Assembly (NCBI RefSeq): GCF_000336755.1
Contig: NZ_AOLK01000012.1
Coordinates: 55,149 to 119,148 of the forward strand
DNA from: Haloferax elongans ATCC BAA-1513
GTDB taxonomy: Archaea > Halobacteriota > Halobacteria > Halobacteriales > Haloferacaceae
Length of the DNA: 64,000 nt
Reading direction: 5' to 3'
How positions within the stretch are numbered: the first letter of the stretch is position 1; the number at the start of each line of letters is the position of its first letter. The notes beneath the pieces were generated by a model. That model did not search any database, had not been told where the DNA came from, and worked only from the letters and a program-made list of their open reading frames with translations. Positions 24,546-41,511 of this stretch are shown piece after piece. Both the position numbers and the translations under genes were made by a program.

Positions 24546-25628
24546 TCAGATAAGGTCGTCTATCTTGTCGTTCTGCCACATCTCACTCGGGTCCTCGCGC
24601 GTCTCGTTTTTCGCCTCGTCGATGGCCTCGCGGGCGCGCTCCATGAACGACTCGACGCGGTCAGAGCGCTCGACGCCGCCCATGAGGACGAGTGACGCGA
24701 GTCGGTTACTTTCGAGTGGGAAGTCGCCACCGCGGACCTGTAGACTGCCGGTCTCTTCCTCGACCCACCGTCGGGCGCGCTCGACACCTTTTCGCGGAAT
24801 CGAATCGGGCTTTCCGGCGACGACGACGAGCGCAGAGTCCGCGTTGCTCGCGTCCGGGAGACTCGTCCCCGTCAGGACGGCTCGACGGACGATACTCATC
24901 ACGGCATTGATGTTCTCTTCTGCCTTCGGTGCCGCTTCGGCACTTGCGTAGCCAAGTGCCGCGATACCCCCGGCACGGAGGGTGTTGATAACCTCGGACG
25001 AGTCGACGACGCTCTCGCCGACGCCTTCGGTCGCCTCGCCGGAGGCGAGCAGGAGGCCGACGCGACGGGCGATAGCCTCGTTTATCGCGTCGAATCCTTC
25101 GCTCATCGACTCGCCAGACGACCGGAAGGCGTCGTTGTCGACGAGGAGGACGGCGTCTGATTCGCGGGCGACAGTCTTGAGCGACCGTCCGGCGTTCACC
25201 TGATACATCGCGCCTTCGTCCTCGCCGGGAAGGATGCCGAGGACGTAGACCGGGATGTTGTAGATTCGCTGGAGTTCCTTCGCGAGGACGGGCGCACCAC
25301 CGGAACCGGACCCCCCACCGAGTCCGGCGACGATGAATATCGACTCGGCTTCGGCCGTGACACGGCCGTCGAGCGCCGAGAGTACTTCCGTCTTGTCCGC
25401 TTGCATGACTTCGGCACCGAGTTCGTTGTCGCCGCCGACGCCGTGGCCGTTGACACGGTCCTGTCCGATGAGAACCGTCTCGAACGGTAGTTGCTTGAGG
25501 TCAGCCTTTGCGGTGTTAACCCCGACTGCACCGAGGACAGCACCGAATCCCATTCGCTCGTCGAACGACTGGAGGGCCGCCGTGAGCTTCCCACCCGCTT
25601 GGCCGAGACCAATCAGGACTGTCTTCAT
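24546..25628 (-). CDS. cetZ2: CetZ tubulin-like cytoskeletal protein
   Basis: A 360-residue tubulin/FtsZ-superfamily protein. It has MKTVLIGLGQAGGKL at the N-terminus (G-box 1), the signature VAGLGGGSGSGGAPVLA and a CetZ-like MGFGAVLGAVGVNTAKADL. CetZ proteins shape haloarchaeal cells and aid motility rather than division. ATG 25628 begins the conserved nucleotide fold; longer upstream frames are unlikely. Among paralogues the position matches H. volcanii CetZ2 (HVO_0745, from memory); the subtype was not checked by phylogeny. Confidence 0.88.
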   Translation of the reverse strand: MKTVLIGLGQAGGKLTAALQSFDERMGFGAVLGAVGVNTAKADLKQLPFETVLIGQDRVNGHGVGGDNELGAEVMQADKTEVLSALDGRVTAEAESIFIVAGLGGGSGSGGAPVLAKELQRIYNIPVYVLGILPGEDEGAMYQVNAGRSLKTVARESDAVLLVDNDAFRSSGESMSEGFDAINEAIARRVGLLLASGEATEGVGESVVDSSEVINTLRAGGIAALGYASAEAAPKAEENINAVMSIVRRAVLTGTSLPDASNADSALVVVAGKPDSIPRKGVERARRWVEEETGSLQVRGGDFPLESNRLASLVLMGGVERSDRVESFMERAREAIDEAKNETREDPSEMWQNDKIDDLI

Positions 25629-25764: not shown

Positions 25765-25801
25765 AGGTTTATGCCATATGACGGGACCACCCCGGCGTAT
25801 G
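25765..25801 (+). promoter_or_regulatory. Shared 37-bp promoter block, copy 1 (before the coiled-coil gene)
   Basis: Begins AGGTTTATGCC and continues with ACGGGACCACCCCG, ending in TATG at the start codon. AGGTT lies exactly 34 nt, and ACGGGA exactly 18 nt, before the ATG at 25799. The same elements at the same spacing recur at 26804 and 30610. The TTTATG part is the TATA-like box; the GC-rich core between TATA and start is not seen before the other genes of the window that I checked. Confidence 0.7.
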
Positions 25802-26311
25802 ACACGCACCACCGGTCGCACGACCACCGAGGAGAACACCCGAGCAACGTCAGATGCTGCGGCCGCCGACCGAACAGCTGAACTCGTCGCTCGCCTTGAC
25901 GCTGTCGAACGGACACTGACCGGAACCGACGCGCCCGTCTCAGACCTCGAAGACCTCGCCGCGGTCGAAGAACGCGTCTCGGATCTCGAATCGACCGTCG
26001 AGACCCTCACCGAACGCATGGACGATATCGACGCTGCGACGCAGGCCATCCGCGGGTACCTCGGCGGCGTTCGCGCGGTCAACGAGTCGGTCGAGCGCCG
26101 GGCGGACGCGGCACTCGCTAAAGCCGAGTCGCTGGAGGAAGCGCTCGTCGACGAATCCGATGCTGCCCGTCAGCAGTCGTCGATAGCCCAGGCGACGGCG
26201 TCTCCCGAGCCAACCGATGGTGTCGAACACGAGCCAGTCGATTCCGCGGCTGGCGACAACGCGGACGCCACGAACAGCGGTCTGGCTGCTCGTCTCCGCG
26301 ACGTGCTGTGA
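25799..26311 (+). CDS. DUF7310-like coiled-coil protein of the pilus-like cluster
   Basis: 170 residues, soluble, with no signal peptide. Residues about 25-125 form a helical coiled coil (RLDAVERTL, VEERVSDLESTVETLTERMD, AVNESVERRADAALAKAESL); both ends are disordered. I recall the family as DUF7310, always linked to this gene cluster. It could scaffold the ATPase/platform complex or tie it to the envelope, but nothing in the sequence proves this. The start is the ATG inside promoter block 1. Its stop overlaps the next gene's GTG (GTGA). Confidence 0.72.
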   Translation: MTRTTGRTTTEENTRATSDAAAADRTAELVARLDAVERTLTGTDAPVSDLEDLAAVEERVSDLESTVETLTERMDDIDAATQAIRGYLGGVRAVNESVERRADAALAKAESLEEALVDESDAARQQSSIAQATASPEPTDGVEHEPVDSAAGDNADATNSGLAARLRDVL

Positions 26312-26748
26312 TTCGCGTCGTCATCGCGTGCTGTCTCGCCGTGGCGATTGCGGGCGTCGCGTTCCCAGCAGCCGACGCCGCCAGAGCGGACGCGACTGCC
26401 GTCAGCGTCGGGTCGATGGCAGACACACTCGCGCAGGCGGCAACCTCGCTCGCGACGACCGAAGACCCGCCCCCGGTCGGCCTCGACGGTGCCCGGAGAC
26501 GTGTCGTTCTCGACGTTCCGTCTGGGTCGTGGCGGTCGGCCCGCGTCTCTCAGCTCACGATTCGCGGCGGCGACGGTGTCGAACTCACGGCGACGACAGC
26601 GGGGGGTCCGACTGTCGTTCGTCGCGTCGGCGGGCCACGCGTTCACGTGGTCGGCGAACGACTCTCACTGGGTCCCGGCACGCACACGCTGGACCTCACG
26701 CTCCAGTCCGATTCGCGTGGCTCGGTCGTCGTGGTCGAACCGGCGTGA
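26308..26748 (+). CDS. Secreted DUF7311-like protein of the pilus-like cluster
   Basis: 146 residues with a Sec-type signal peptide: MIRVVIACCLAVAIAGVAFP, then PAADAARADA with an AxA cleavage site near residue 24. The mature part is strand-rich (RRRVVLDVPSGSW, VSQLTIRGGDGVELTAT, THTLDLTLQSDSRGSVVVV), resembling a small beta-sandwich. The GTG start overlaps the previous stop, so translation is coupled. No enzyme motif. An extracytoplasmic partner of the pilus-like machine is the simplest reading. Confidence 0.7.
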   Translation: MIRVVIACCLAVAIAGVAFPAADAARADATAVSVGSMADTLAQAATSLATTEDPPPVGLDGARRRVVLDVPSGSWRSARVSQLTIRGGDGVELTATTAGGPTVVRRVGGPRVHVVGERLSLGPGTHTLDLTLQSDSRGSVVVVEPA

Positions 26749-26803
26749 ATCGGCGTTTGCAACCCCATTTATCGACCGTTTTCACCTTCGAATCCCCGGG
26801 CGT

Positions 26804-26840
26804 AGGTTCAAATACCCGAACGGGATCACGCCGGTGTATG
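26804..26840 (+). promoter_or_regulatory. Shared 37-bp promoter block, copy 2 (before the PilB-like ATPase)
   Basis: AGGTTCAAATAC, four bases, then ACGGGATCACGCCG and TATG at the ATG of 26838. Spacing of AGGTT (34 nt) and ACGGGA (18 nt) to the start is identical to the other two copies. CGAACGGGA is shared exactly with copy 3. The preceding 55 bp hold no gene and lie between the DUF7311-like stop and this promoter, so the ATPase gene can be transcribed on its own. Confidence 0.75.
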
Positions 26841-28856
26841 CCTCTCGACCTCGCCGCCGCACTCGGACTGGACGACTCCTCGTCGCCCGATGTCGGACGG
26901 TCTCTCTCGCGCACGGTGTCTGACTACCTCGGGGATTCTCCCGTCGCGGACTCCCTTCCAGATTCGCTCGTCGCTTCGAGCGACGCCGACTCGTCCCCGG
27001 CGTGTGGCTGTGCGCCGACGTTCTCGACGCCGACCGACGACCTGCACGACGACGATGCGGTGCTTCTCGTCGACGCGAGCACGTGCCCGTACGGCGGGTC
27101 GCTCGCAACCTCGCCGCCGTGTCGGGCGACAGCAATCGGTGCGCTGGAGGACCGCGACGCCGATTCGGTCGTCGTCCGCCAAGGCGGCCGGGAGTGGCGG
27201 TACGACGACGCCGCGACTGCCCTCCTCGTCGCTGCCGGGAGATTTGCAGAACGCGTCGGCTTCCGCGACGACCGACTGGCCGAACGCGCTCGCCGCGACC
27301 CGCTCGCCGCCGCACACGAAGCAACTGGCCGTGCCGGGCCGGTCAAGCGCGCCGCCGTCGAAACCGGACTCACCGAGGGAGCGGCCCGCGCTGCCGACTA
27401 CGACGACGCACTCCGCGCTGTAGTCGGACCGACGATTGCCCGCTCGCGTATCGACCCGAAACCGCCAGCAGACGCGCGACTCGTCTCCACCAGCGAACTC
27501 GACTCGGGTGCGGTTGCTCGCCGGTACGAGGCCCCGAACGGCCCCGTCTACCACCTCGACCCACTGGCGTCGACGCTCGATGCCGACTCGGCGCAGACGC
27601 TCGCAGACGCCCACGACGCGCTTGCACAGGGCCGCGTCGAGGCCGGTGAGCGAGCACCCGGACGCGCGGTGCGTCTCGTTGCCGACGCTGACGACCCGGT
27701 CGACGTGCTCACGTCGATTCTGGCGAAGCACACCCACGGTCACGGCGTCCTCGACGATCTGTTTTCCGACCCGGCGGTGTCGGACGTGTACGTCTCGACG
27801 CCAGCCGACGAGAACCTGATTCGCGTCGTCGTCGATGGCGAATCGATGCCGACGAACGTCCGACTCGTGCCCGGCGGTGCCGAGTCGTTGGCGTCGCGCC
27901 TCCGTCGCGTGAGTGGCGCGTCGTTCTCCCGCGCGGACCCGACGCTCGACACCGTCGTCGAGGCCGGCGGGGCGACGGTTCGCGTCGCGGGCGTGACCGC
28001 ACCGGCAAGTGATAGTCTCGGGTTCGCGTTCCGCAGACACGACGAGACGCCACTGACGCTCCCCGCGCTGGTGGAAAACGGAACCATCTCGGCCGACGCC
28101 GCCGCCCTCTGCTCGCTTGCTGTCGAGCGCGGTGCGTCGGTCCTCGTCGCTGGCGCACGCGGAGCGGGGAAGACGACCTTCCTCGGGTCGCTCGTCTGGG
28201 AACTGCCCGCTTCGGTTCGAACGGTTCTCATCGAGGACACGCCCGAGCTTCCGGCGGCGGCACTTCGAGCCGCGGACAGAGACGTGCAGACGCTTCGAAC
28301 CGACACGACTGGCGGGCCAGAACCGACGCCGCAGGAGGCGCTCCACGCCGCGCTCAGGCTCGGCGACGGTGCGCTCGCAGTTGGCGAAGTTCGCGGCGAG
28401 GAGGCGTCAGTGCTCTACGAAGCGATGCGCGTCGGCGCGAACGCGAGCGCCGTCCTCGGAACGATTCACGGCGACGGTGCGACCGACGTACGCGAGCGGG
28501 TCGTGTCGGACCTCGGCGTTCCGGCCTCGTCGTTCGCGGCGACCGACCTCGTCGTCACCTGTGAACGCGCCGACGAGCATCGCGTCGCCCGAATCGAAGA
28601 GGTGCGCCCGACCGACGGCGACGCGACGTTCGAGACGCTGTTCTCTCACGATGGCGCGTCGCTCACGCCGACCGGGTGTGTCTCTCGCGGCAACAGCGCC
28701 GCAATCGAGACGCTTGCCCGACCGGGCGAGTCGTACGCCGACGTGCTCGACACAATCGACGAGCGCGCTCGCCGACTCGAATCGCTCGCCGCGACGGGCA
28801 GAACGACGCCAACTGACCTCGCCGACGCCCGCGCAGGGGGTGTGTCCCGATGGTGA
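26838..28856 (+). CDS. PilB-like type II/IV secretion ATPase
   Basis: 672 residues. The C-terminal half is a secretion-system ATPase: Walker A GARGAGKT near 440, Asp box LIEDTPELP, Walker B GALAVGEVRGEE near 514 and His box LGTIHGDGATD near 540. It should power assembly of a pilus-like fibre with the PilC-like protein that follows. The N-terminal half is family-specific and holds four cysteines (about 56, 58, 83 and 95: PACGCAP, STCPYGG, PPCRAT) that could bind zinc. The start is the ATG in promoter block 2; longer frames upstream lack haloarchaeal composition. The next gene overlaps its end by 7 bp. Confidence 0.9.
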   Translation: MPLDLAAALGLDDSSSPDVGRSLSRTVSDYLGDSPVADSLPDSLVASSDADSSPACGCAPTFSTPTDDLHDDDAVLLVDASTCPYGGSLATSPPCRATAIGALEDRDADSVVVRQGGREWRYDDAATALLVAAGRFAERVGFRDDRLAERARRDPLAAAHEATGRAGPVKRAAVETGLTEGAARAADYDDALRAVVGPTIARSRIDPKPPADARLVSTSELDSGAVARRYEAPNGPVYHLDPLASTLDADSAQTLADAHDALAQGRVEAGERAPGRAVRLVADADDPVDVLTSILAKHTHGHGVLDDLFSDPAVSDVYVSTPADENLIRVVVDGESMPTNVRLVPGGAESLASRLRRVSGASFSRADPTLDTVVEAGGATVRVAGVTAPASDSLGFAFRRHDETPLTLPALVENGTISADAAALCSLAVERGASVLVAGARGAGKTTFLGSLVWELPASVRTVLIEDTPELPAAALRAADRDVQTLRTDTTGGPEPTPQEALHAALRLGDGALAVGEVRGEEASVLYEAMRVGANASAVLGTIHGDGATDVRERVVSDLGVPASSFAATDLVVTCERADEHRVARIEEVRPTDGDATFETLFSHDGASLTPTGCVSRGNSAAIETLARPGESYADVLDTIDERARRLESLAATGRTTPTDLADARAGGVSRW

Positions 28857-30583
28857 CCACAGCGACGCGAACGATGGTTCACACCGTCCTCCCGGCGCTC
28901 GCACGCCTCTCGCCAGTCTCTGTCGACCCCGGCGACGAACTGACGCAATCGCTGGCGTTTCTCACCACCGACCTCGACGCCCAGACCGTCGTCGACGCGG
29001 GATACGGCGCGAGCGTTCCGGGCGGTCTCGTCGGCGGGCTGCTCGCGGCGCTCGTCGGCGTTCCGCCTCTGACTATCGGACTCGTCTTCCTCGCCATGGC
29101 GATGGGTGCGACGCACGCGATTCACACCGCACCAGTCTGGCTCGCGAGACTCCACCGAACGCGGGCACTCGGCCGCGCCCCGGAACTCGTCGGGCGACTC
29201 GTGCTTCGGATGCGACTCGAACCGTCTGTCGAGCGCGCGGCGGTGTTCGCGGCGAACGCCGGCGACGACGCCTTGGCGAACTCGCTCGACACACACGTCG
29301 AACGTGCCCGTGGAACGCCGACCAGCGGCCTCAGCGAGTTCGCTGCCGCGTGGCGCTCGTGGTTCCCTGCGCTCGACCGGGCGACCGCGCTCGTCGAAAC
29401 CGCAGCAGACGTGCCTGCTGGCGAACGCGACCGAACGCTCGAACGAGCCCACGAGGTCGTTCGCGTCGAGACGCGCGACCGACTTGCCGCGTTCGTCGGC
29501 GAGATTCGTGGACCGATTACCGCCGTGTACGCGTTCGGCGTCTTGCTCCCGCTCGCACTGGTCGGGGCGCTCCCAGCAGCCCGTGTCGCTGGCGTCGGGG
29601 TTGGTTTCGCTCACGTCGTCGCGCTCTACGATGTCGTCCTTCCGGCGTGCCTCTTCGCTGCTGTCGCGTGGGTGTTAGTTCGCCGTCCTGTCGCGTTCGC
29701 ACCGCTCTCTATCGACGCCTCGAATCCGGCAGTCGAGGATACCCGACTACTGGCTGCTGTCTCCGGCCTCGTCGCCGGTGGTGCCGGATTCGTCGGTGCT
29801 AACACGCTCGTCGCGCCGTGGGCGGCCCCGCTCGGCGCAGTCGGACTCGCGTCGGGTGCGGCGCTCGTCGTCGGCTCCCGGCCGGTCGTCAAACTCCGCG
29901 AACAGGTTCGAGCGGTCGAAGACGGTCTCTCGGACGCGATGTACCTCGTCGGCAGGGCTGTCGGTGAGGGCGAAGCCGTCGAATCGGCGCTTGCCCGTGC
30001 CGCGGAGACGACACCCGGCGCGACTGGCGACCTGCTCTCCGACGCTGTCGGCGTGCAGCGCCGACTCCGGGTTGGCGTCGTCGACTCGTTCTGCGGCGAC
30101 CACGGCGTTCTCGAATCGCTGCCGAGCCCGCGCGTCGCCAGCGTCGTGACACTCCTCGGACTCGCCGCACACGAGGGCCGACCCGCGGGCCGCGCCATCG
30201 TCTCGATGGCTGACCAACTCGACGCACTCGCTCGGCTGGACGCCGAGGCTCGCCGCGAACTCGCAACTGTAACCGAGACGCTGTCGAACACGGCGTCCGT
30301 CTTCGGGCCGCTCGTCGCTGGCGCGACGGTCGCTCTCGCCGATGGGATGGCTCCGGCGCGAACGCTCGACCAGGCTGCCGTCACTGCACCGCTCGCGACT
30401 GCCGACCTCGGGCTGGCCGTCGGCGTCTACGTCTTACTCTCTGCGGTGCTCCTGACGACGCTCTCGGTCGGCGTGGCGAACGGACTGGATCGCCACCTCG
30501 TCGCGGCCCGCGTCGGACGCGCGCTCCTCTCGGCGACCGTGACGTTCCTCGCTGCGTTCGTCGCCGCAGGGACGCTGCTCTGA
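28850..30583 (+). CDS. PilC/TadC-like platform membrane protein (two T2SSF-like halves)
   Basis: 577 residues. Helices come in two groups (about 50-100 and 220-345), with a final group near 520-577. Each soluble part looks like a type II secretion F domain (LRMRLEPSVERAAVFAANAGD and GRAVGEGEAVESALARAAET), the duplicated layout usual for archaeal PilC/ArlJ proteins. It would form the membrane platform that the ATPase drives. Overlap ATGGTGA with the ATPase gene shows tight coupling. Ala/Val-rich composition with few charged residues in the membrane part is normal for this class. Confidence 0.85.
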   Translation: MVTTATRTMVHTVLPALARLSPVSVDPGDELTQSLAFLTTDLDAQTVVDAGYGASVPGGLVGGLLAALVGVPPLTIGLVFLAMAMGATHAIHTAPVWLARLHRTRALGRAPELVGRLVLRMRLEPSVERAAVFAANAGDDALANSLDTHVERARGTPTSGLSEFAAAWRSWFPALDRATALVETAADVPAGERDRTLERAHEVVRVETRDRLAAFVGEIRGPITAVYAFGVLLPLALVGALPAARVAGVGVGFAHVVALYDVVLPACLFAAVAWVLVRRPVAFAPLSIDASNPAVEDTRLLAAVSGLVAGGAGFVGANTLVAPWAAPLGAVGLASGAALVVGSRPVVKLREQVRAVEDGLSDAMYLVGRAVGEGEAVESALARAAETTPGATGDLLSDAVGVQRRLRVGVVDSFCGDHGVLESLPSPRVASVVTLLGLAAHEGRPAGRAIVSMADQLDALARLDAEARRELATVTETLSNTASVFGPLVAGATVALADGMAPARTLDQAAVTAPLATADLGLAVGVYVLLSAVLLTTLSVGVANGLDRHLVAARVGRALLSATVTFLAAFVAAGTLL

Positions 30584-30609
30584 TACCCCGCCCGGCCCAC
30601 CCGGTGCTG

Positions 30610-30646
30610 AGGTTTAAATACTCGAACGGGACCACCCCGTCCTATG
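30610..30646 (+). promoter_or_regulatory. Shared 37-bp promoter block, copy 3 (before the four anchored proteins)
   Basis: AGGTTTAAATAC, four bases, then ACGGGACCACCCCG and TATG at the ATG of 30644. It is closest to copy 2 in the TATA part and to copy 1 in the GC-rich core. TTTAAATA is a good haloarchaeal TATA box at leaderless distance. It splits the downstream four-gene unit from the pilB/pilC-like unit after a 60-bp gap. Confidence 0.75.
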
Positions 30647-31198
30647 TTGGACGTTCCGTTCGAATCGATGTACACGCTGGTCGCGCTCTCGGTGGGTGCC
30701 ACGCTCCTCGTCGGCGTCGTGGCAGGGCTCCCGACGACACCAGCACCGGATGCGCAGGGGGTCGCTGAGACCATCGACGACGTCGCAGTCGCCGAGTACG
30801 ACGCGACGGCCGAGGTTCCGCTCGGCGCAGCCGAAATTCGGCTCGACCCGCAGCGAATCGGCCTGCGGAACGACGGCGGTGTCGCGCACGCGACACTCGC
30901 CTTCGGCCCCGTCACCCCCGCGACGTTGGATTCGCGGCTCGGTGCTGTCGCCACGGGCGCAGCCCCGAGTACTGTCTTCGACTCGCCAGCCGCATTCCGG
31001 AAGGCTGCTGCCGAGTCCCGCGAGGTCGCGACCGTAACCCGTGAGGTCGCGACCGCAACCCGTGAGACTGCGACCGCGACTCGTGACGCCACGGCCGCGA
31101 CCCACGAAACCGGTCGCTCGTGGCGTTCTGCGCCTGAATCGCTCGTCGTCCGTCACGTCACCTGGGAGGGAGTCGATGTCACTATCGTCGCAGCGTAG
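30644..31198 (+). CDS. DUF7283-like anchored protein with heptad repeats
   Basis: 184 residues. One N-terminal transmembrane helix (YTLVALSVGATLLVGVVAGL, residues 10-29) is followed by a short globular part, a heptad repeat region at residues 127-154 (EVATVTR, EVATATR, ETATATR, DATAATH) and a strand-rich tail. The layout, a short cytoplasmic head then a helix then an external domain, is like a type IV pilin, but no clear prepilin-peptidase site precedes the helix. I recall the family as DUF7283. It leads a four-gene overlapping unit. Confidence 0.68.
   Translation: MLDVPFESMYTLVALSVGATLLVGVVAGLPTTPAPDAQGVAETIDDVAVAEYDATAEVPLGAAEIRLDPQRIGLRNDGGVAHATLAFGPVTPATLDSRLGAVATGAAPSTVFDSPAAFRKAAAESREVATVTREVATATRETATATRDATAATHETGRSWRSAPESLVVRHVTWEGVDVTIVAA
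31022..31105 (+). repeat. Four in-frame 21-bp tandem repeats
   Basis: Units at 31022-31042, 31043-31063, 31064-31084 and 31085-31105 code for heptads of the pattern [ED]-x-A-T-x-T-[RH]. The first two differ by one base (GTAACC to GCAACC), showing recent duplication, and the last two are diverged. They extend a helical rod in the membrane-anchored protein at 30644-31198. Confidence 0.85.
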
Positions 31199-31574
31199 AG
31201 GCCAGTTGTCGCCGATGTCTGCGCTCGTCGGTCTCGTCGTCGTGTGTGCAGCCATCTCGGGCTATGCGACGGTTCTCGACCGGTCGCTTCCGACCGCCGA
31301 CCGTGACCTCGAACCCTCGACGCTGACCGCTGTCGAGTCGGCCCTCGCCGACGATTCCGGCGTCGTCGAACTCGCACGTCTCTCGGCGGGCCTCGATGCG
31401 TGCCCGACCGGATACTCGTGCCGTCTCGTCGTAGCGGTCGGGGACGAGCGACGCGTCGCAGGCGCGGAGGTGCCGGACGGTGCCACGACCGACACGGCGA
31501 GTACGCAGGTGAGTGTTCGCTCCGAACCCGGTCACGTTGGCTTCGGGACGCTTCGCGTGGAGGTCTGGGCGTGA
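31176..31574 (+). CDS. Predicted type IV pilin-like protein (DUF7285-like)
   Basis: 132 residues. The head QRRGQLSPMSALVGLVVVCA fits the archaeal prepilin-peptidase (PibD) rule: two charged residues, Gly at -1, Gln at +1, Leu at +2, then a hydrophobic helix. Cleavage would fall after residue 9. After the helix comes a small domain with a Cys pair (LDACPTGYSCRLVVAVG) that may form a disulfide outside the cell. ATG 31176 lies inside the end of the previous gene (23-bp overlap), and its stop overlaps the next GTG. This is the best candidate pilin of the cluster. Confidence 0.72.
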   Translation: MSLSSQRRGQLSPMSALVGLVVVCAAISGYATVLDRSLPTADRDLEPSTLTAVESALADDSGVVELARLSAGLDACPTGYSCRLVVAVGDERRVAGAEVPDGATTDTASTQVSVRSEPGHVGFGTLRVEVWA

Positions 31575-32449
31575 CCGACCTCGTCCTCGACGTGACGCTC
31601 TGTCTGCTCCTCGTGAGTGCGAGCGTCGGCGTCGTCGTCACCGCAGACGAAGGTAGCCTCACGGGCGCTGACAACGCGCTCGACGCAGACGGTATCGCAA
31701 CGTCGCTGGCGACCAGCACGGCGACAGTCTACTACGACCTCGAACCCGGCGTCGAAGCCGCGGACCCGTCGCTTCTGGAGTCTGGTGGCGTCGATGCGCG
31801 CGAACTCGACCGCACTGCTCACGGTAGTCTCGCCGGGTTACTCGCCCGCAGTACCCTCGGGACAGTCGCTATCGATGGCGTTCGACTCACTCACGCCCGC
31901 GACGACATGCGTCGGAGCGTCGCCGAACGCATCGCTTCGGAACTTCCTGTCCGCGGTGTCAACGTCGCCGTTCGGTGGGCACCGTACCCCGGTGCACCGG
32001 TGCAAGCGACCGATACACTCGGTCCTCGCCCTTCCGAGGCCGCGACGGTTCACTCGGCGTCGCTTCGCGTTCCGAGTGGCTTCCCATCAGCACGTGAAGA
32101 CGCGGTCACCGCAAGCGACGACGGCTTCGACGCTGTGGCGCGAGTGGTTGCACAACGGACGGTTGCGGGCTTGTTCCCACCCGAACAGGCTCGGTTGGCG
32201 CTTCACGGCGACGAGCCGGTTTCGACGCTGATGGCCCACCGCTACGAGCGGGCGGGCACGCTTCTGAATGCGTCTGTCGAACCGGAAGTCGCGAGTGTCG
32301 AGCCTCGTGCCGCTAACGCCGACCTCGAAGCGGCGCTCGCGCCCAAACTCGCAGCCGACATGCGGGCGAACTACGAGACACCGAGGGAGGCCGCACAAGC
32401 CATCTCGGTCGGCCACGTAGACATCGTTGTCAGGACGTGGTCGCTGTGA
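31571..32449 (+). CDS. DUF7284-like anchored protein
   Basis: 292 residues with one N-terminal helix (LVLDVTLCLLLVSASVGVVV, residues 3-22) and a large external-type domain containing DDMRRSVAERIASELPVRGV and a sequon LNASVEP. GTG start overlapping the previous stop (GTGA) and GTGA overlap at its own end show strict coupling with both neighbours. No prepilin-peptidase motif precedes the helix because it starts almost at residue 1. Family recalled as DUF7284; function unknown apart from the cluster. Confidence 0.68.
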   Translation: MTDLVLDVTLCLLLVSASVGVVVTADEGSLTGADNALDADGIATSLATSTATVYYDLEPGVEAADPSLLESGGVDARELDRTAHGSLAGLLARSTLGTVAIDGVRLTHARDDMRRSVAERIASELPVRGVNVAVRWAPYPGAPVQATDTLGPRPSEAATVHSASLRVPSGFPSAREDAVTASDDGFDAVARVVAQRTVAGLFPPEQARLALHGDEPVSTLMAHRYERAGTLLNASVEPEVASVEPRAANADLEAALAPKLAADMRANYETPREAAQAISVGHVDIVVRTWSL

Positions 32450-35400
32450 GACTCGCGGACGACGACCGGGGACGCGTTCCCTTCGCACTCCTCGGCATCC
32501 TTCTGCTCGTCGCCAGCGCGACGTTCTCCGGCGCGCTCTCGACCCACAACCCGGTTGCTGACCGACGCGTCGACGAGGCAGTCGAGACGGTCACTGCCGA
32601 GACGAATACCGCAGTCCGCGCTGCAGTTCGAGACGCTGCGCGCGAGGCGGCCGCGAATCCGGTCACGAAACGGTCGAACACGACCGTCGGCCGACTCCTC
32701 TCGGCGAACAATACGTTCCGCGATTACCTCCGACTCCGAATCGCACTCGCCGCGTCCGAGCATCTGCAAACGACTGCCGTCCAACGTGGCGGCGTGTGTG
32801 CGACCGCGTCGCTCCCGTCGACGCCGAACGAATCTGCGCTTCGGGCGGCACTCGACCGCGTCGCAATCGAGGAACGAGAAAACGGGACGCTGCTCGTCGT
32901 CACTGTCGAGAACGTCTCGGTCGATGCGTGGCGCGACGGTCGTCACGTGGTCGACGACACGATAACGACGACCGTCGGCGTCCAGACGCCGGTACTCGCG
33001 CTCCACGACCGAACCGAGCGGTTCGAACACCGACTCGACGCGGGCATTACTGACGGCGGAACCATGGACGCGACGGTCACGACCGCACTCTGGGCCTCCG
33101 CGTGGACTCGCGGCTGGGGACAGTACGCGGGCGCACCAATCGACAACGTCGTCACGAACGACCACGCCGCGCTGGCAGCGAACGCGGGCGTCCTTCTCGC
33201 CGAGAAGCAGGCATTTGGCGCGACCGACCGCGACGCGACTGGCGCACTCGGCCGAGCGGCCGTCAAGACCGGCGCACGCGACCTCTTGACGCTGACCGGG
33301 TCTCCCGCCGCACCCAAGCTGGCCAACGCGCTTCCCGAACCGAATCCATCTGAAAGCTCGGATACCCCGAAACCGACCGACCCAGAGAACCGCAGCATCA
33401 ACTCGTCTGTCGGACCAGCCGCAGACCACGCGCTCGTCGCGCTGCTCGACGGCGACGGACGCGGTAGCGAGAATGGCGACCACGCAGAATCGTTCGACAG
33501 CGTCGTCACCGATGCCTATCGTGCGGACGCTGCAGTCGTCGCGGAGCGAACAGTCGAGCAAACGACGACCCCGATGACTCAGCCGGGCGACGGCTGGGAA
33601 CTCGTCGGCACTGAGACCGAGTCGAACACGACGGTCACGTCGCTGCCGACCCGGACGCCGGACACGCACGTGGAAACTGTCGTCGTCGATTCCGCATCCC
33701 GTCTGGTCACGACGACCGAGACGTCGACGCGAACGTGGCGTCGCGGGAACGAAACGCTCTCGTCGCAAGCGCGGTCGACCACCGAAACTCGCGTCGACCT
33801 GGCTGTCGTCGTCGACCCGCAAAGCGTGCCCGGCCCAGACCAAAACATCTCTCCTGCACTCTCCCGCGGCGGCGCACTGAATGGCGCGAACTACGAGTCT
33901 GCGGCGGATGTCGCAACCGACACGCTGGAAACGAGCGGCGGCTTCGACGGACTCGCACGCGACGTGGCTGCCAGTGACGAACCCACCCCGGATTCCATTG
34001 CTGTGACTCGCCCATCGAAGCTCGACACGTGGCTTCGCGGAGACCTGCTCGACCTTCACCAGCGCGTCCGCAACCGGACTGTGACCGTCTCGGCGCAGTC
34101 GCTCGCGGCGAGTGAATCTAACCCCGCGGCCGAACTCGCGGCCGACATCCGAGCGGACAAAGACGAACTTCTCGATGCGCCGACCACCTACGACGGCGTC
34201 GCCGACCGCGCCCGCGTCGCAGTCCGTGCAGCCTACCTCGATCACGTCCTCGCCGAACTCGACCGGCGCGCGAACCGAACCGCCGACGCGACCGGTGCCG
34301 CAGACGATGCGTCGCAGGATTCCAACGTCGGGTCACTCTCTGCGGCCGTCGCCGCGAAACGAGCAGCAGGCGACACGCTCGGCTCCGCGAACGCGACCCA
34401 GTCGGCTGATGGCGTTCGGTACGTCCCCGACGCTGACCCGATGTATCTCTCGCTCGACGGCCAGGCTGGTTCGTCGCTCCCGGCTGTCGACTCGTCGGGG
34501 ACCTATCACCCGCTCGTCGCCCGCAACACCAATCTGTTCACGCTCCCCTACGGCGATGCGACCGACACGGTCCTCGAACCCGTGTTCGGCGCTCGTCGTC
34601 GGGTCCCGCTCCGAGTCGCAGCGCGGACACTTCTCGCCGCGGATGCGACGCTCGATGCGTCGAACGCATCCAACGAGAGCCTCGAAAAACGTCACGACCG
34701 TCTCGAAACCCGCCACACCCGGCTCGAAGCCGCGGTCACCCGAGCGATGCGGCCCCCCACGACCGCAGCCGCAACGACGCTCACCGAACACACCGACCTC
34801 TCGAACACCGAACGTCGGCGCGTCCTTCGAACCGCACTCGGCCGCTGGGAGAGTCCGGCTCACCGCGCGCTCGCCGTCACGAACGGGTCGGCGGCACGGG
34901 CGATTGCTATCGAAGCCGCAGGCGCGGGAACCACGGAGGCCGACCTCCTCGAACTCCGCCTCGATGAGGCATTTCGGGCCGCCCGCAAGCAGACGGGCGC
35001 GACGGTCCCGCAGCGACTCACGAACCGGACGGTCCACACGACTCGGTCGGTCCGCGAAGACGCAGTCGCGACCGTTGCGACGGACGCCGCGATGAGTGCA
35101 ACCGAAAAGGCAGTGTCGAAGCGGGTGAACAAGACGCTCTCGTCCCGACTCGGCAAGAACTTCCGGCGCGTTCCCGCTGGATTCCCGGTCGCGCCCGTGC
35201 CGGGATACTGGTACGCGACGGTCAACGTGTGGGACGTCGAACTCGCGGGCGAGTTCGCGCAGTTCCGTGTCCACGCTCGCGGTGACACGGAGTCGTTGAC
35301 CTACGCCCGCGATGGGGCTTCTGTGGCACTCGACTGGGACGGCGACGGGACCAGCGAAGCCGTTGGACGCGGTGAGCGCGTTAACTTCACTGTCGAGACA

Positions 35401-35529
35401 GCTATCGTGGTCGCCGTCCCACCGTCGGGAATCGGTGTCGGCGACATCGACGGCAACGCCGACGAACGCTCCGCTGGCTGGGCTGGCGGCCCCGGCTGTA
35501 CCGCTGTCGGGGACTGTCGGCAGTCCTGA
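32446..35529 (+). CDS. Large (1027-residue) single-pass surface-type protein (DUF7286-like)
   Basis: The N-terminus DDDRGRVPFALLGILLLVAS is a short polar head plus one helix; everything after about residue 33 is non-membrane. At least ten N-x-S/T sequons (for example NTTV, NESAL, NVSV, NRTV, NASNES, NGSA, NKTL, NFTV) suit an N-glycosylated extracellular domain. Ala/Thr/Arg-rich helical stretches dominate. Two cysteines lie in the last 12 residues (GCTAVGDC). The GTG at 32446 overlaps the previous stop. It may be an adhesin or tip subunit of the pilus-like machine; family recalled as DUF7286. The RGRV head is a poor PibD site because +1 is Arg. Confidence 0.7.
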   Translation: MRLADDDRGRVPFALLGILLLVASATFSGALSTHNPVADRRVDEAVETVTAETNTAVRAAVRDAAREAAANPVTKRSNTTVGRLLSANNTFRDYLRLRIALAASEHLQTTAVQRGGVCATASLPSTPNESALRAALDRVAIEERENGTLLVVTVENVSVDAWRDGRHVVDDTITTTVGVQTPVLALHDRTERFEHRLDAGITDGGTMDATVTTALWASAWTRGWGQYAGAPIDNVVTNDHAALAANAGVLLAEKQAFGATDRDATGALGRAAVKTGARDLLTLTGSPAAPKLANALPEPNPSESSDTPKPTDPENRSINSSVGPAADHALVALLDGDGRGSENGDHAESFDSVVTDAYRADAAVVAERTVEQTTTPMTQPGDGWELVGTETESNTTVTSLPTRTPDTHVETVVVDSASRLVTTTETSTRTWRRGNETLSSQARSTTETRVDLAVVVDPQSVPGPDQNISPALSRGGALNGANYESAADVATDTLETSGGFDGLARDVAASDEPTPDSIAVTRPSKLDTWLRGDLLDLHQRVRNRTVTVSAQSLAASESNPAAELAADIRADKDELLDAPTTYDGVADRARVAVRAAYLDHVLAELDRRANRTADATGAADDASQDSNVGSLSAAVAAKRAAGDTLGSANATQSADGVRYVPDADPMYLSLDGQAGSSLPAVDSSGTYHPLVARNTNLFTLPYGDATDTVLEPVFGARRRVPLRVAARTLLAADATLDASNASNESLEKRHDRLETRHTRLEAAVTRAMRPPTTAAATTLTEHTDLSNTERRRVLRTALGRWESPAHRALAVTNGSAARAIAIEAAGAGTTEADLLELRLDEAFRAARKQTGATVPQRLTNRTVHTTRSVREDAVATVATDAAMSATEKAVSKRVNKTLSSRLGKNFRRVPAGFPVAPVPGYWYATVNVWDVELAGEFAQFRVHARGDTESLTYARDGASVALDWDGDGTSEAVGRGERVNFTVETAIVVAVPPSGIGVGDIDGNADERSAGWAGGPGCTAVGDCRQS

Positions 35530-41026: not shown

Positions 41027-41511
41027 GCGAGGAGACCTACGACGATTTGGCAGGCGTCGTCGACCTCTTTGGTGCACTCACTCGCGAGGAACTCGAAGAC
41101 GCGCTGGACGAACTGGCTTTCAAACAGGGACACGAGACCGACACTGACGCACTCTCTGGTGCGATTTCGGACGCTGTGGACGCGTACTACCTCGTCCCGT
41201 ACGAGTCGGACGAGGCGGATGCCGAGTTGCTGACGGTCGGCCCGGTGGCCTTCCCGACGCTGCCGCCGCGAGCGGAGGACCTCCCGCACATTCTCGACTA
41301 TCCGACGCGGACGGTCCCGCGCGACGAACTGGTCGAGCAGGTCGAAGGCCGTCTTCGCACCGCGGCGGCGAAAGCCGTCTCGTCGGGAGACACCGACGAG
41401 GCCGCTCGACTGCTCGATATCACATACGACCTCGAAGCGTGGGCAGACACCGATGTCGCCTCGATTCGCGAGCGTCTGGACGCAGCATTGGCGGAAGAGG
41501 GGCAGGCCTAA
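41023..41511 (+). CDS. DUF7109-like acidic soluble protein
   Basis: 162 residues, strongly acidic (MSEETYDDLAGVVDLFGALT). The middle (YYLVPYESDEADAELLTVGP, FPTLPPRAEDLPHIL) suggests a compact domain; both ends are helical. I recall a haloarchaeal family DUF7109 but no function. The gene precedes the NUDIX gene by 29 bp on the same strand, so they are likely co-transcribed. See the upstream frame and direct repeat for its unusual leader. Confidence 0.65.
   Translation: MSEETYDDLAGVVDLFGALTREELEDALDELAFKQGHETDTDALSGAISDAVDAYYLVPYESDEADAELLTVGPVAFPTLPPRAEDLPHILDYPTRTVPRDELVEQVEGRLRTAAAKAVSSGDTDEAARLLDITYDLEAWADTDVASIRERLDAALAEEGQA

Follow-up and report, generated by a model that had tools for sequence, protein, structure and literature searches.

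We have analyzed a stretch of 64,000 nucleotides from the genome of Haloferax elongans ATCC BAA-1513 (contig NZ_AOLK01000012.1, positions 55,149 to 119,148), which we call the window. Our subject is a cluster of eight genes at positions 25799-35529 of its + strand, which by its sequence is a pilus locus of the PilB2-C2 kind. The cluster shares a promoter element with a pair of genes encoding a DUF7382 protein and a HerA-like ATPase, and with further genes whose products are predicted to handle DNA. The element has a fixed place and spacing and is present before named gene families, and the pilus, the HerA-like ATPase and DUF7857 co-occur in genomes. The interpretation that we favor is that the locus may well encode a pilus for the uptake of DNA, and we put the probability of this at a little under one half (0.48). 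As a pilus locus it is ordinary; what is unusual is that it stands at the center of a gene set which a promoter defines across the class and which includes predicted DNA-handling genes.

The element has the layout TATA, six bases, CGNGRCCA, 8-9 bases, start codon, and the same element stands before the first gene and in both gaps of the locus. All eight open reading frames were confirmed. The features are as follows (coordinates are those of the window).

25768-25789, + strand: shared promoter element of unit 1 (TTTATGCC ... CGGGACCA), 9 bases before the ATG; matrix score 20.3
25799-26311, + strand: DUF7310 coiled-coil protein; Pfam PF23991, 2.7e-29
26308-26748, + strand: DUF7311 protein with a single N-terminal hydrophobic segment; Pfam PF23993, 1.2e-34
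26807-26828, + strand: shared promoter element of unit 2, before PilB; matrix score 20.5
26838-28856, + strand: PilB2-type assembly ATPase; Pfam T2SSE 5.7e-15; NCBIfam TadA-type ATPase 4.3e-29, under the cut-off
28850-30583, + strand: PilC2-type platform membrane protein, assigned by position and seven hydrophobic segments
30613-30634, + strand: shared promoter element of unit 3, before DUF7283; matrix score 30.5
30644-31198, + strand: DUF7283 membrane-anchored protein; Pfam PF23954, 8.5e-45
31176-31574, + strand: DUF7285 protein with the prepilin-like site RRG/QLSP; Pfam PF23956, 4.3e-27
31571-32449, + strand: DUF7284 protein, an N-terminal helix and an alpha/beta domain; Pfam PF23955, 4.3e-91
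32446-35529, + strand: DUF7286 protein of 1,027 amino acids (aa) with the prepilin-like site RG/RVPFA; Pfam PF23957, 4.1e-303
24546-25628, - strand: neighboring CetZ gene (CetZ2 by context only); Pfam CetZ_C, 2.4e-66

Before PilB the CGNGRCCA sequence reads CGGGATCA and is followed by 9 bases up to the start codon; the spacing of element and start would fit leaderless transcripts. The initial annotation had placed the eight genes and their overlaps correctly (GTGA at 26308, 31571 and 32446, ATGGTGA at 28850, and 23 bp at 31176-31198), and had concluded that gene dosage is tightly fixed. At the remaining two junctions the genes are 89 bp (26749-26837) and 60 bp (30584-30643) apart, and the promoter elements in both gaps weaken that conclusion. 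Because each internal gap holds an element matching that before the first gene, the locus appears to consist of three co-regulated units, not one operon of fixed dosage.

The generality of the arrangement was examined in 80 named PilB loci, some of them cut by contig ends, in which each family was sought by a single-sequence search that is weak for small proteins. The loci were scanned without choosing starts, with 12 bits taken as a pass; the training set of the matrix consisted solely of 68 DUF7283 promoters of the named genomes. The element was present at 70 of 80 PilB, 60 of 68 DUF7310 and 65 of 71 DUF7283 loci. It was found before none of the internal genes (DUF7311 0/39, PilC 0/79, DUF7285 0/52, DUF7284 0/52, DUF7286 0/66) and before neither of the neighboring controls (CetZ 0/43, DUF5791 0/44). 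Near the 62,846 RTG codons of these loci there were 40 more sites; read by hand, 20 belonged to HerA, DUF7382, DUF7857 or MinD-like genes, 10 to pilus genes missed by the assignment, and 10 to others. The window itself has element matches of 12.8-15.2 bits at 41119 (+), 43099 (-) and 51644 (-) that lack a start codon 7-10 bases downstream.

The element was then followed through a class-wide set of 97 genomes. The plain pattern occurs in 76 of these, with up to 14 sites per genome, and the reversed pattern gave 5 matches overall. The genes behind the element were read for part of the sites, their families being identified with Pfam and NCBIfam on examples. Among the matches listed, the recurring products are DUF7382, a HerA-type ATPase, a PLD-family protein, a Cas4-like protein, a NucS_N/zinc-ribbon protein, DUF7857 and a MinD/ParA ATPase; a TctA-family membrane gene follows the element in six genomes, its family having been checked for one. 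The HerA-like ATPase has 359 aa with a P-loop near residue 45, and matches HerA_C and DUF87 above their cut-offs. DUF7382 looks pilin-like by eye, with a prepilin-like site and a long hydrophobic helix; its Ig-like Pfam matches lie under the cut-off. The PLD-family protein, which is probably an exported nuclease, matches PLDc_2 (5.8e-35); models of DrmC, cardiolipin synthases and NucT match it in part, each under its cut-off. The NucS_N protein also bears a Top1-type zinc ribbon.

The association was also approached from homology. Five families were sought in the 97 genomes by protein or profile, and the best 30 loci of each, which are not a random draw, were scored; the seeds of four families had been found by the motif, and DUF7857 was searched with its own Pfam model. 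The element passed at 28 of the best 30 loci for the PLD family, 27 for NucS_N/zinc-ribbon, 26 for Cas4-like, 23 for DUF7857 and 16 for HerA-like, and the reversed matrix passed at 0 of all 150. An earlier matrix of 178 sites, later replaced by the DUF7283-trained one, had given 20 (HerA), 28 (PLD), 25 (Cas4-like) and 25 (DUF7857) of the best 30. With that earlier matrix, 22 of the 30 HerA loci carried the element together with a DUF7382 gene divergent from the HerA-like gene, an arrangement seen in 23 altogether. Of 30 DUF7857 loci, 23 have a MinD-type P-loop encoded downstream. In 8 of the 80 PilB loci (L073, L076, L081, L083, L086, L093, L100 and L110 in our numbering of loci) the HerA-like gene lies close to the pilus genes, with 1.3-1.6 kb between its end and PilB, and in 7 of these DUF7382 adjoins it.

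Within the H. elongans genome itself, about 800 kb of two contigs contained 19 sites of at least 12 bits, against 4 with the reversed matrix. Seven of the 19 are followed by a leaderless reading frame of at least 50 aa, encoding DUF7857, DUF7382, HerA-like, Cas4-like, MinD-like and pilin-like proteins and one doubtful product. The family of the MinD/ParA ATPase was confirmed, and its element scores 20.4 with the earlier matrix. An archaeal pilin-like gene (160 aa, judged by eye) at C11:267930 has an intermediate element score, 15.6.

Does the presence of these genes follow that of the pilus? Pilus presence was scored by DUF7286, giving 74 positive genomes out of 97, with all others counted as negative. 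DUF7857 was found in 71 of the 74 and in 0 of the 23 without the pilus. The HerA-like ATPase was found in 68 of the 74 and likewise in 0 of 23, three weak matches having been set aside. These three are among the 71 genomes that passed the HerA search at E <= 1e-25; they lie in genomes G043, G056 and G068 (E 5e-36, 2e-40 and 2e-35) and were scored as paralogues or fragments. If they are kept the HerA count becomes 71, two of which (G043 and G068) are pilus-negative. The Fisher values for co-occurrence with the pilus are 4e-17 (HerA-like ATPase) and 2e-19 (DUF7857), calculated ignoring relatedness. The 23 pilus-negative genomes are spread over seven families, which suggests several losses. One genome lacking DUF7286 (G044, locus L156) has a 303-aa reading frame resembling a shortened PilB with the element still before its start, and this looks like decay of a pilus locus.

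How might such a set of proteins bring DNA into the cell? In the scheme that we propose, pilins of the DUF7382 and/or DUF7285 type would be built into a filament by PilB and PilC, with DUF7286 as its large surface subunit, and DNA from outside would reach the cell surface by means of this pilus. The PLD-family protein, as a putative exported nuclease, would cut the DNA there, and the HerA-type ATPase would drive a strand into the cell by way of a channel, TctA-like or other. Once inside, the strand would be coated by the NucS_N/zinc-ribbon protein, perhaps with replication factor A (RPA), and the Cas4-like protein could trim it for recombination or for reuse as phosphorus. The element, lying between the TATA box and the start, would be recognized by a putative regulator or special TFB that switches on the whole set together. 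The gene set and the idea of uptake were derived from the promoter element before any comparison with the gene list of Methanococcus, where transformation of M. maripaludis requires a type IV-like pilus together with MinD/ParA-like and TctA-like proteins and a thermonuclease (PMC10133366). More tentatively, the same observations could be extended to a competence regulon common to the haloarchaeal class. Its single promoter class (TATA-N6-CGNGRCCA, leaderless), under one regulator or special TFB, would cover the PilB2-C2 pilus, a HerA-type motor importing DNA with surface and cytoplasmic nucleases, and a group of putative small RNAs described below.

A number of observations weigh against uptake. 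The HerA-like gene is missing from 6 of the 74 pilus genomes, and its own promoter passes in only 16 of the 30 best loci. A third contig of H. elongans has 8 sites of at least 12 bits in 400 kb (reversed matrix, 1) with no recognized member of the set; these indicate the noise level of the element, which has look-alikes. In the same genome the PLD-family promoter reaches only 11.4 (earlier matrix), and no TctA gene was seen in the 1.2 Mb scanned. The PLD-family protein scores 44 and 42 bits with cardiolipin-synthase models, 39 with NucT and 59 with DrmC, none above cut-off, so that both its nuclease activity and its export are properties that we infer; the Cas4 match is similarly weak, at 31.8 of 65 bits. 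Experimental work on Haloferax points elsewhere in several respects. Loss of halocin H4 abolished uptake in H. mediterranei, for which the authors suspect perforation of the surface (PMC6759562). Growth of H. volcanii on DNA requires Hvo_1477, a gene with a thermonuclease domain, and that study did not show that long DNA is imported (PMC3929857). Under mating conditions cetZ2 mostly falls, and the archaellum and pilus genes follow no uniform pattern (PMC7749143). Finally, three of the families are near-universal regardless of the pilus (PLD-family 97 of 97 genomes, Cas4-like 96, NucS_N/zinc-ribbon 95), and their presence in genomes without it means that they have pilus-independent work to do.

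This last result would agree with a pilus that served adhesion or aggregation and handled no DNA itself, a general surface or starvation regulator being shared between it and enzymes for scavenging DNA outside the cell. Other haloarchaeal PilB/C pairs (PilB1 and PilB3) do function in adhesion (PMC6491452). However, the confinement of the HerA-type ATPase and DUF7857 to pilus genomes, and the position of HerA beside PilB in some of the named loci, weigh against such a function, and we consider it rather unlikely.

The HerA-type ATPase could alternatively act in contact-dependent exchange of the crenarchaeal Ups/Ced kind, where pili aggregate the cells and the ATPase transfers chromosomal DNA after damage. 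In that system, too, a HerA-family ATPase and a type IV pilus share their control (PMC11868833), and the haloarchaeal protein weakly matches CedD over a local stretch (E 1.1e-6, 27.6 bits; cut-off 600). Yet the haloarchaeal protein is short, with its P-loop close to the N terminus, and mating in Haloferax is described as occurring via cell bridges or fusion, in conditions where cetZ2 mostly falls (PMC7749143). Exchange of this kind is improbable, in our estimation. A free-standing fibre or secretion machine made from one operon, as the initial annotation had it, would agree with the tight overlaps inside each unit and the conserved gene content, but is made very improbable by the two internal promoter elements and by the same element at genes beyond the locus.

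We return to the uptake pilus, and to the proteins that might form it. DUF7283, DUF7285, DUF7284 and DUF7286 each have a single hydrophobic segment close to the start, and the initial annotation had built the machine around all four as anchored proteins. A pilin-like nature is supported for two of them: a class III-like prepilin site is present in the window only in DUF7285 (RGQ) and DUF7286 (RGR), and DUF7283 and DUF7284 there have no prepilin-like site. Among loci with an aligned N-terminus the site is kept in 39 of 49 DUF7285 and 56 of 65 DUF7286 proteins; a far looser pattern was found in 25 of 51 DUF7284 and 0 of 70 DUF7283 N-termini. Structure prediction, carried out for two of the four, gave an AlphaFold model of DUF7284 with a pLDDT of 88 and a poorer one of DUF7286 (pLDDT 73, pTM 0.48). 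Neither matched any PDB entry at E <= 0.001, so a pilin fold is not demonstrated for either.

Six of the eight proteins match DUF families and PilB matches T2SSE; PilC gave no match in searches of Pfam, NCBIfam and PDB sequences. PilB has N-terminal cysteines at 56, 58, 83 and 95 and a Walker A motif at 439. Its best relatives are Haloferax sequences with 71-83% identity, other listed genera reaching at most 58%, and the PilB N-termini are variable among homologues. DUF7310 has no hydrophobic segment. For DUF7286, the GTG start at 32446 agrees better with the homologues than one at 32437.

Across the 80 PilB loci, PilC was found in 79, DUF7283 in 71, DUF7310 in 68, DUF7286 in 66, DUF7285 and DUF7284 in 52 each and DUF7311 in 39, with all eight genes in 28; a CetZ gene was found in 43. 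These counts bear on whether the anchored families occur apart from the ATPase only from the side of PilB, where the companionship is close for DUF7283 and DUF7286. In a broader sample DUF7286 was present in 225 of 292 Halobacteria genomes. Six of the 80 loci (L050, L057, L072, L076, L093 and L107) have DUF7310, PilB and PilC without any of DUF7283-DUF7286. Contig ends truncate L050 and L107; in the other four the pilin unit may sit elsewhere or be replaced.

The same promoter also precedes intergenic stretches whose first three codons are a start, a single further codon and a stop; a likely stem comes next, and in many cases a GYCGCCTG-type end some 100 bases on (L149, L153, L175, L176, L178-L180, L183, L185, L187-L189, L229 and L233, with many copies in genome G010 and one, L332, in H. 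elongans). These would be the start-X-stop small RNAs of the regulon proposed above; Rfam searches on 14 such loci gave no match at E <= 0.5. A weaker form of the element precedes RPA genes (L425-L454), for the most part some 70-79 bases upstream, with a hairpin-like leader after it. Here 13 of 30 loci reach 12 bits, against 0 with the reversed matrix, and the distance to the gene is not the usual one, so that RPA is no more than a possible member of the set.

Two candidates for the regulator were considered. DUF5791, a possible transcription factor (PMC9856176), has the element before 0 of 44 genes and no other support, and is no more than a possible regulator. Close to the DUF7857 operon, and pointing towards it, is a gene read by eye as TFB (L339, L342 and L344); the element is found only in L344 (16.8), which is insufficient to propose it as the special transcription factor of the set.

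Outside DNA supports the growth of H. volcanii (PMC3929857) and plasmids are taken up by H. mediterranei (PMC6759562), yet the text available settles no machine for haloarchaeal DNA uptake. According to the available text of PMC10133366, no ComEC homologue has been identified in naturally competent archaea, and the DNA transporter of M. maripaludis is otherwise unknown. By linking a pilus with a HerA-type ATPase and with predicted DNA-processing proteins, the promoter element supplies a short list of candidate genes, and it is a marker with which the regulator and further members may be sought. If the uptake reading is correct, gene exchange in haloarchaea gains a testable machine, and a shared context for eight DUF families would follow.

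As a machine, the pilus is not new. Two described features recur in the window, the CetZ gene at 24546-25628 and the N-terminal cysteines of PilB, and on these grounds of sequence we identify the locus as the PilB2/PilC2 type IV pilus locus already known from haloarchaea, which lies beside cetZ and belongs to subclade 4F of Makarova. The halobacterial pili of that subclade have a coiled-coil protein and an FtsZ-family gene (PMC4858521), and the pilB2/C2 regulon beside cetZ2 has been described with a role stated as unknown (PMC9856176). The initial annotation was thus right to see a dedicated type IV pilus-like machine, which the literature sets apart from PilA (PilB3) pili and archaella; this machine had been described already in those two papers. 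A full-text literature search on six DUF names found no paper, and none on the promoter element or the HerA link was found in the titles and abstract beginnings listed from the open-licence literature. The likeness to subclade 4F and PilB2-C2 extends to a VirB11/TadA-type ATPase gene overlapping that of a multi-membrane platform protein (PilC by position and topology only), a cytoplasmic coiled-coil protein (DUF7310), anchored proteins, a large surface protein, an FtsZ-family (CetZ) neighbor and four cysteines within residues 56-95 of the ATPase. The difference is that, in their available text, those descriptions mention no shared promoter element, no link to a HerA-like ATPase or to DUF7857-MinD, and no wider gene set.

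The transformation system of M. maripaludis resembles the proposed set in its type IV-like pilus, MinD/ParA ATPase and nucleic-acid-binding protein and, more tentatively, in its TctA-family protein and probable exported nuclease (PMC10133366). Its own features are the Epd pilus, a thermonuclease and an OB-fold binding protein, and its description, in the text available, includes no HerA-like gene or shared promoter element (PMC10133366). The haloarchaeal set, by comparison, is known from genes alone, with TctA tied to it in just the six genomes. The crenarchaeal Ups/Ced system likewise joins a type IV pilus to a HerA-family ATPase in co-regulation (PMC11868833), which here is indicated by promoter element and neighborhood only. 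The architecture of the ATPase differs, and the haloarchaeal HerA-like protein stays far below the cut-off of the full-length CedD model (27.6 bits against 600). In bacteria, the competence regulons controlled by ComK or Sxy place a pilus, a surface nuclease and DNA-processing genes under one signal, as we propose here, with the difference that the signal in the haloarchaea would be read at an archaeal TATA promoter element.

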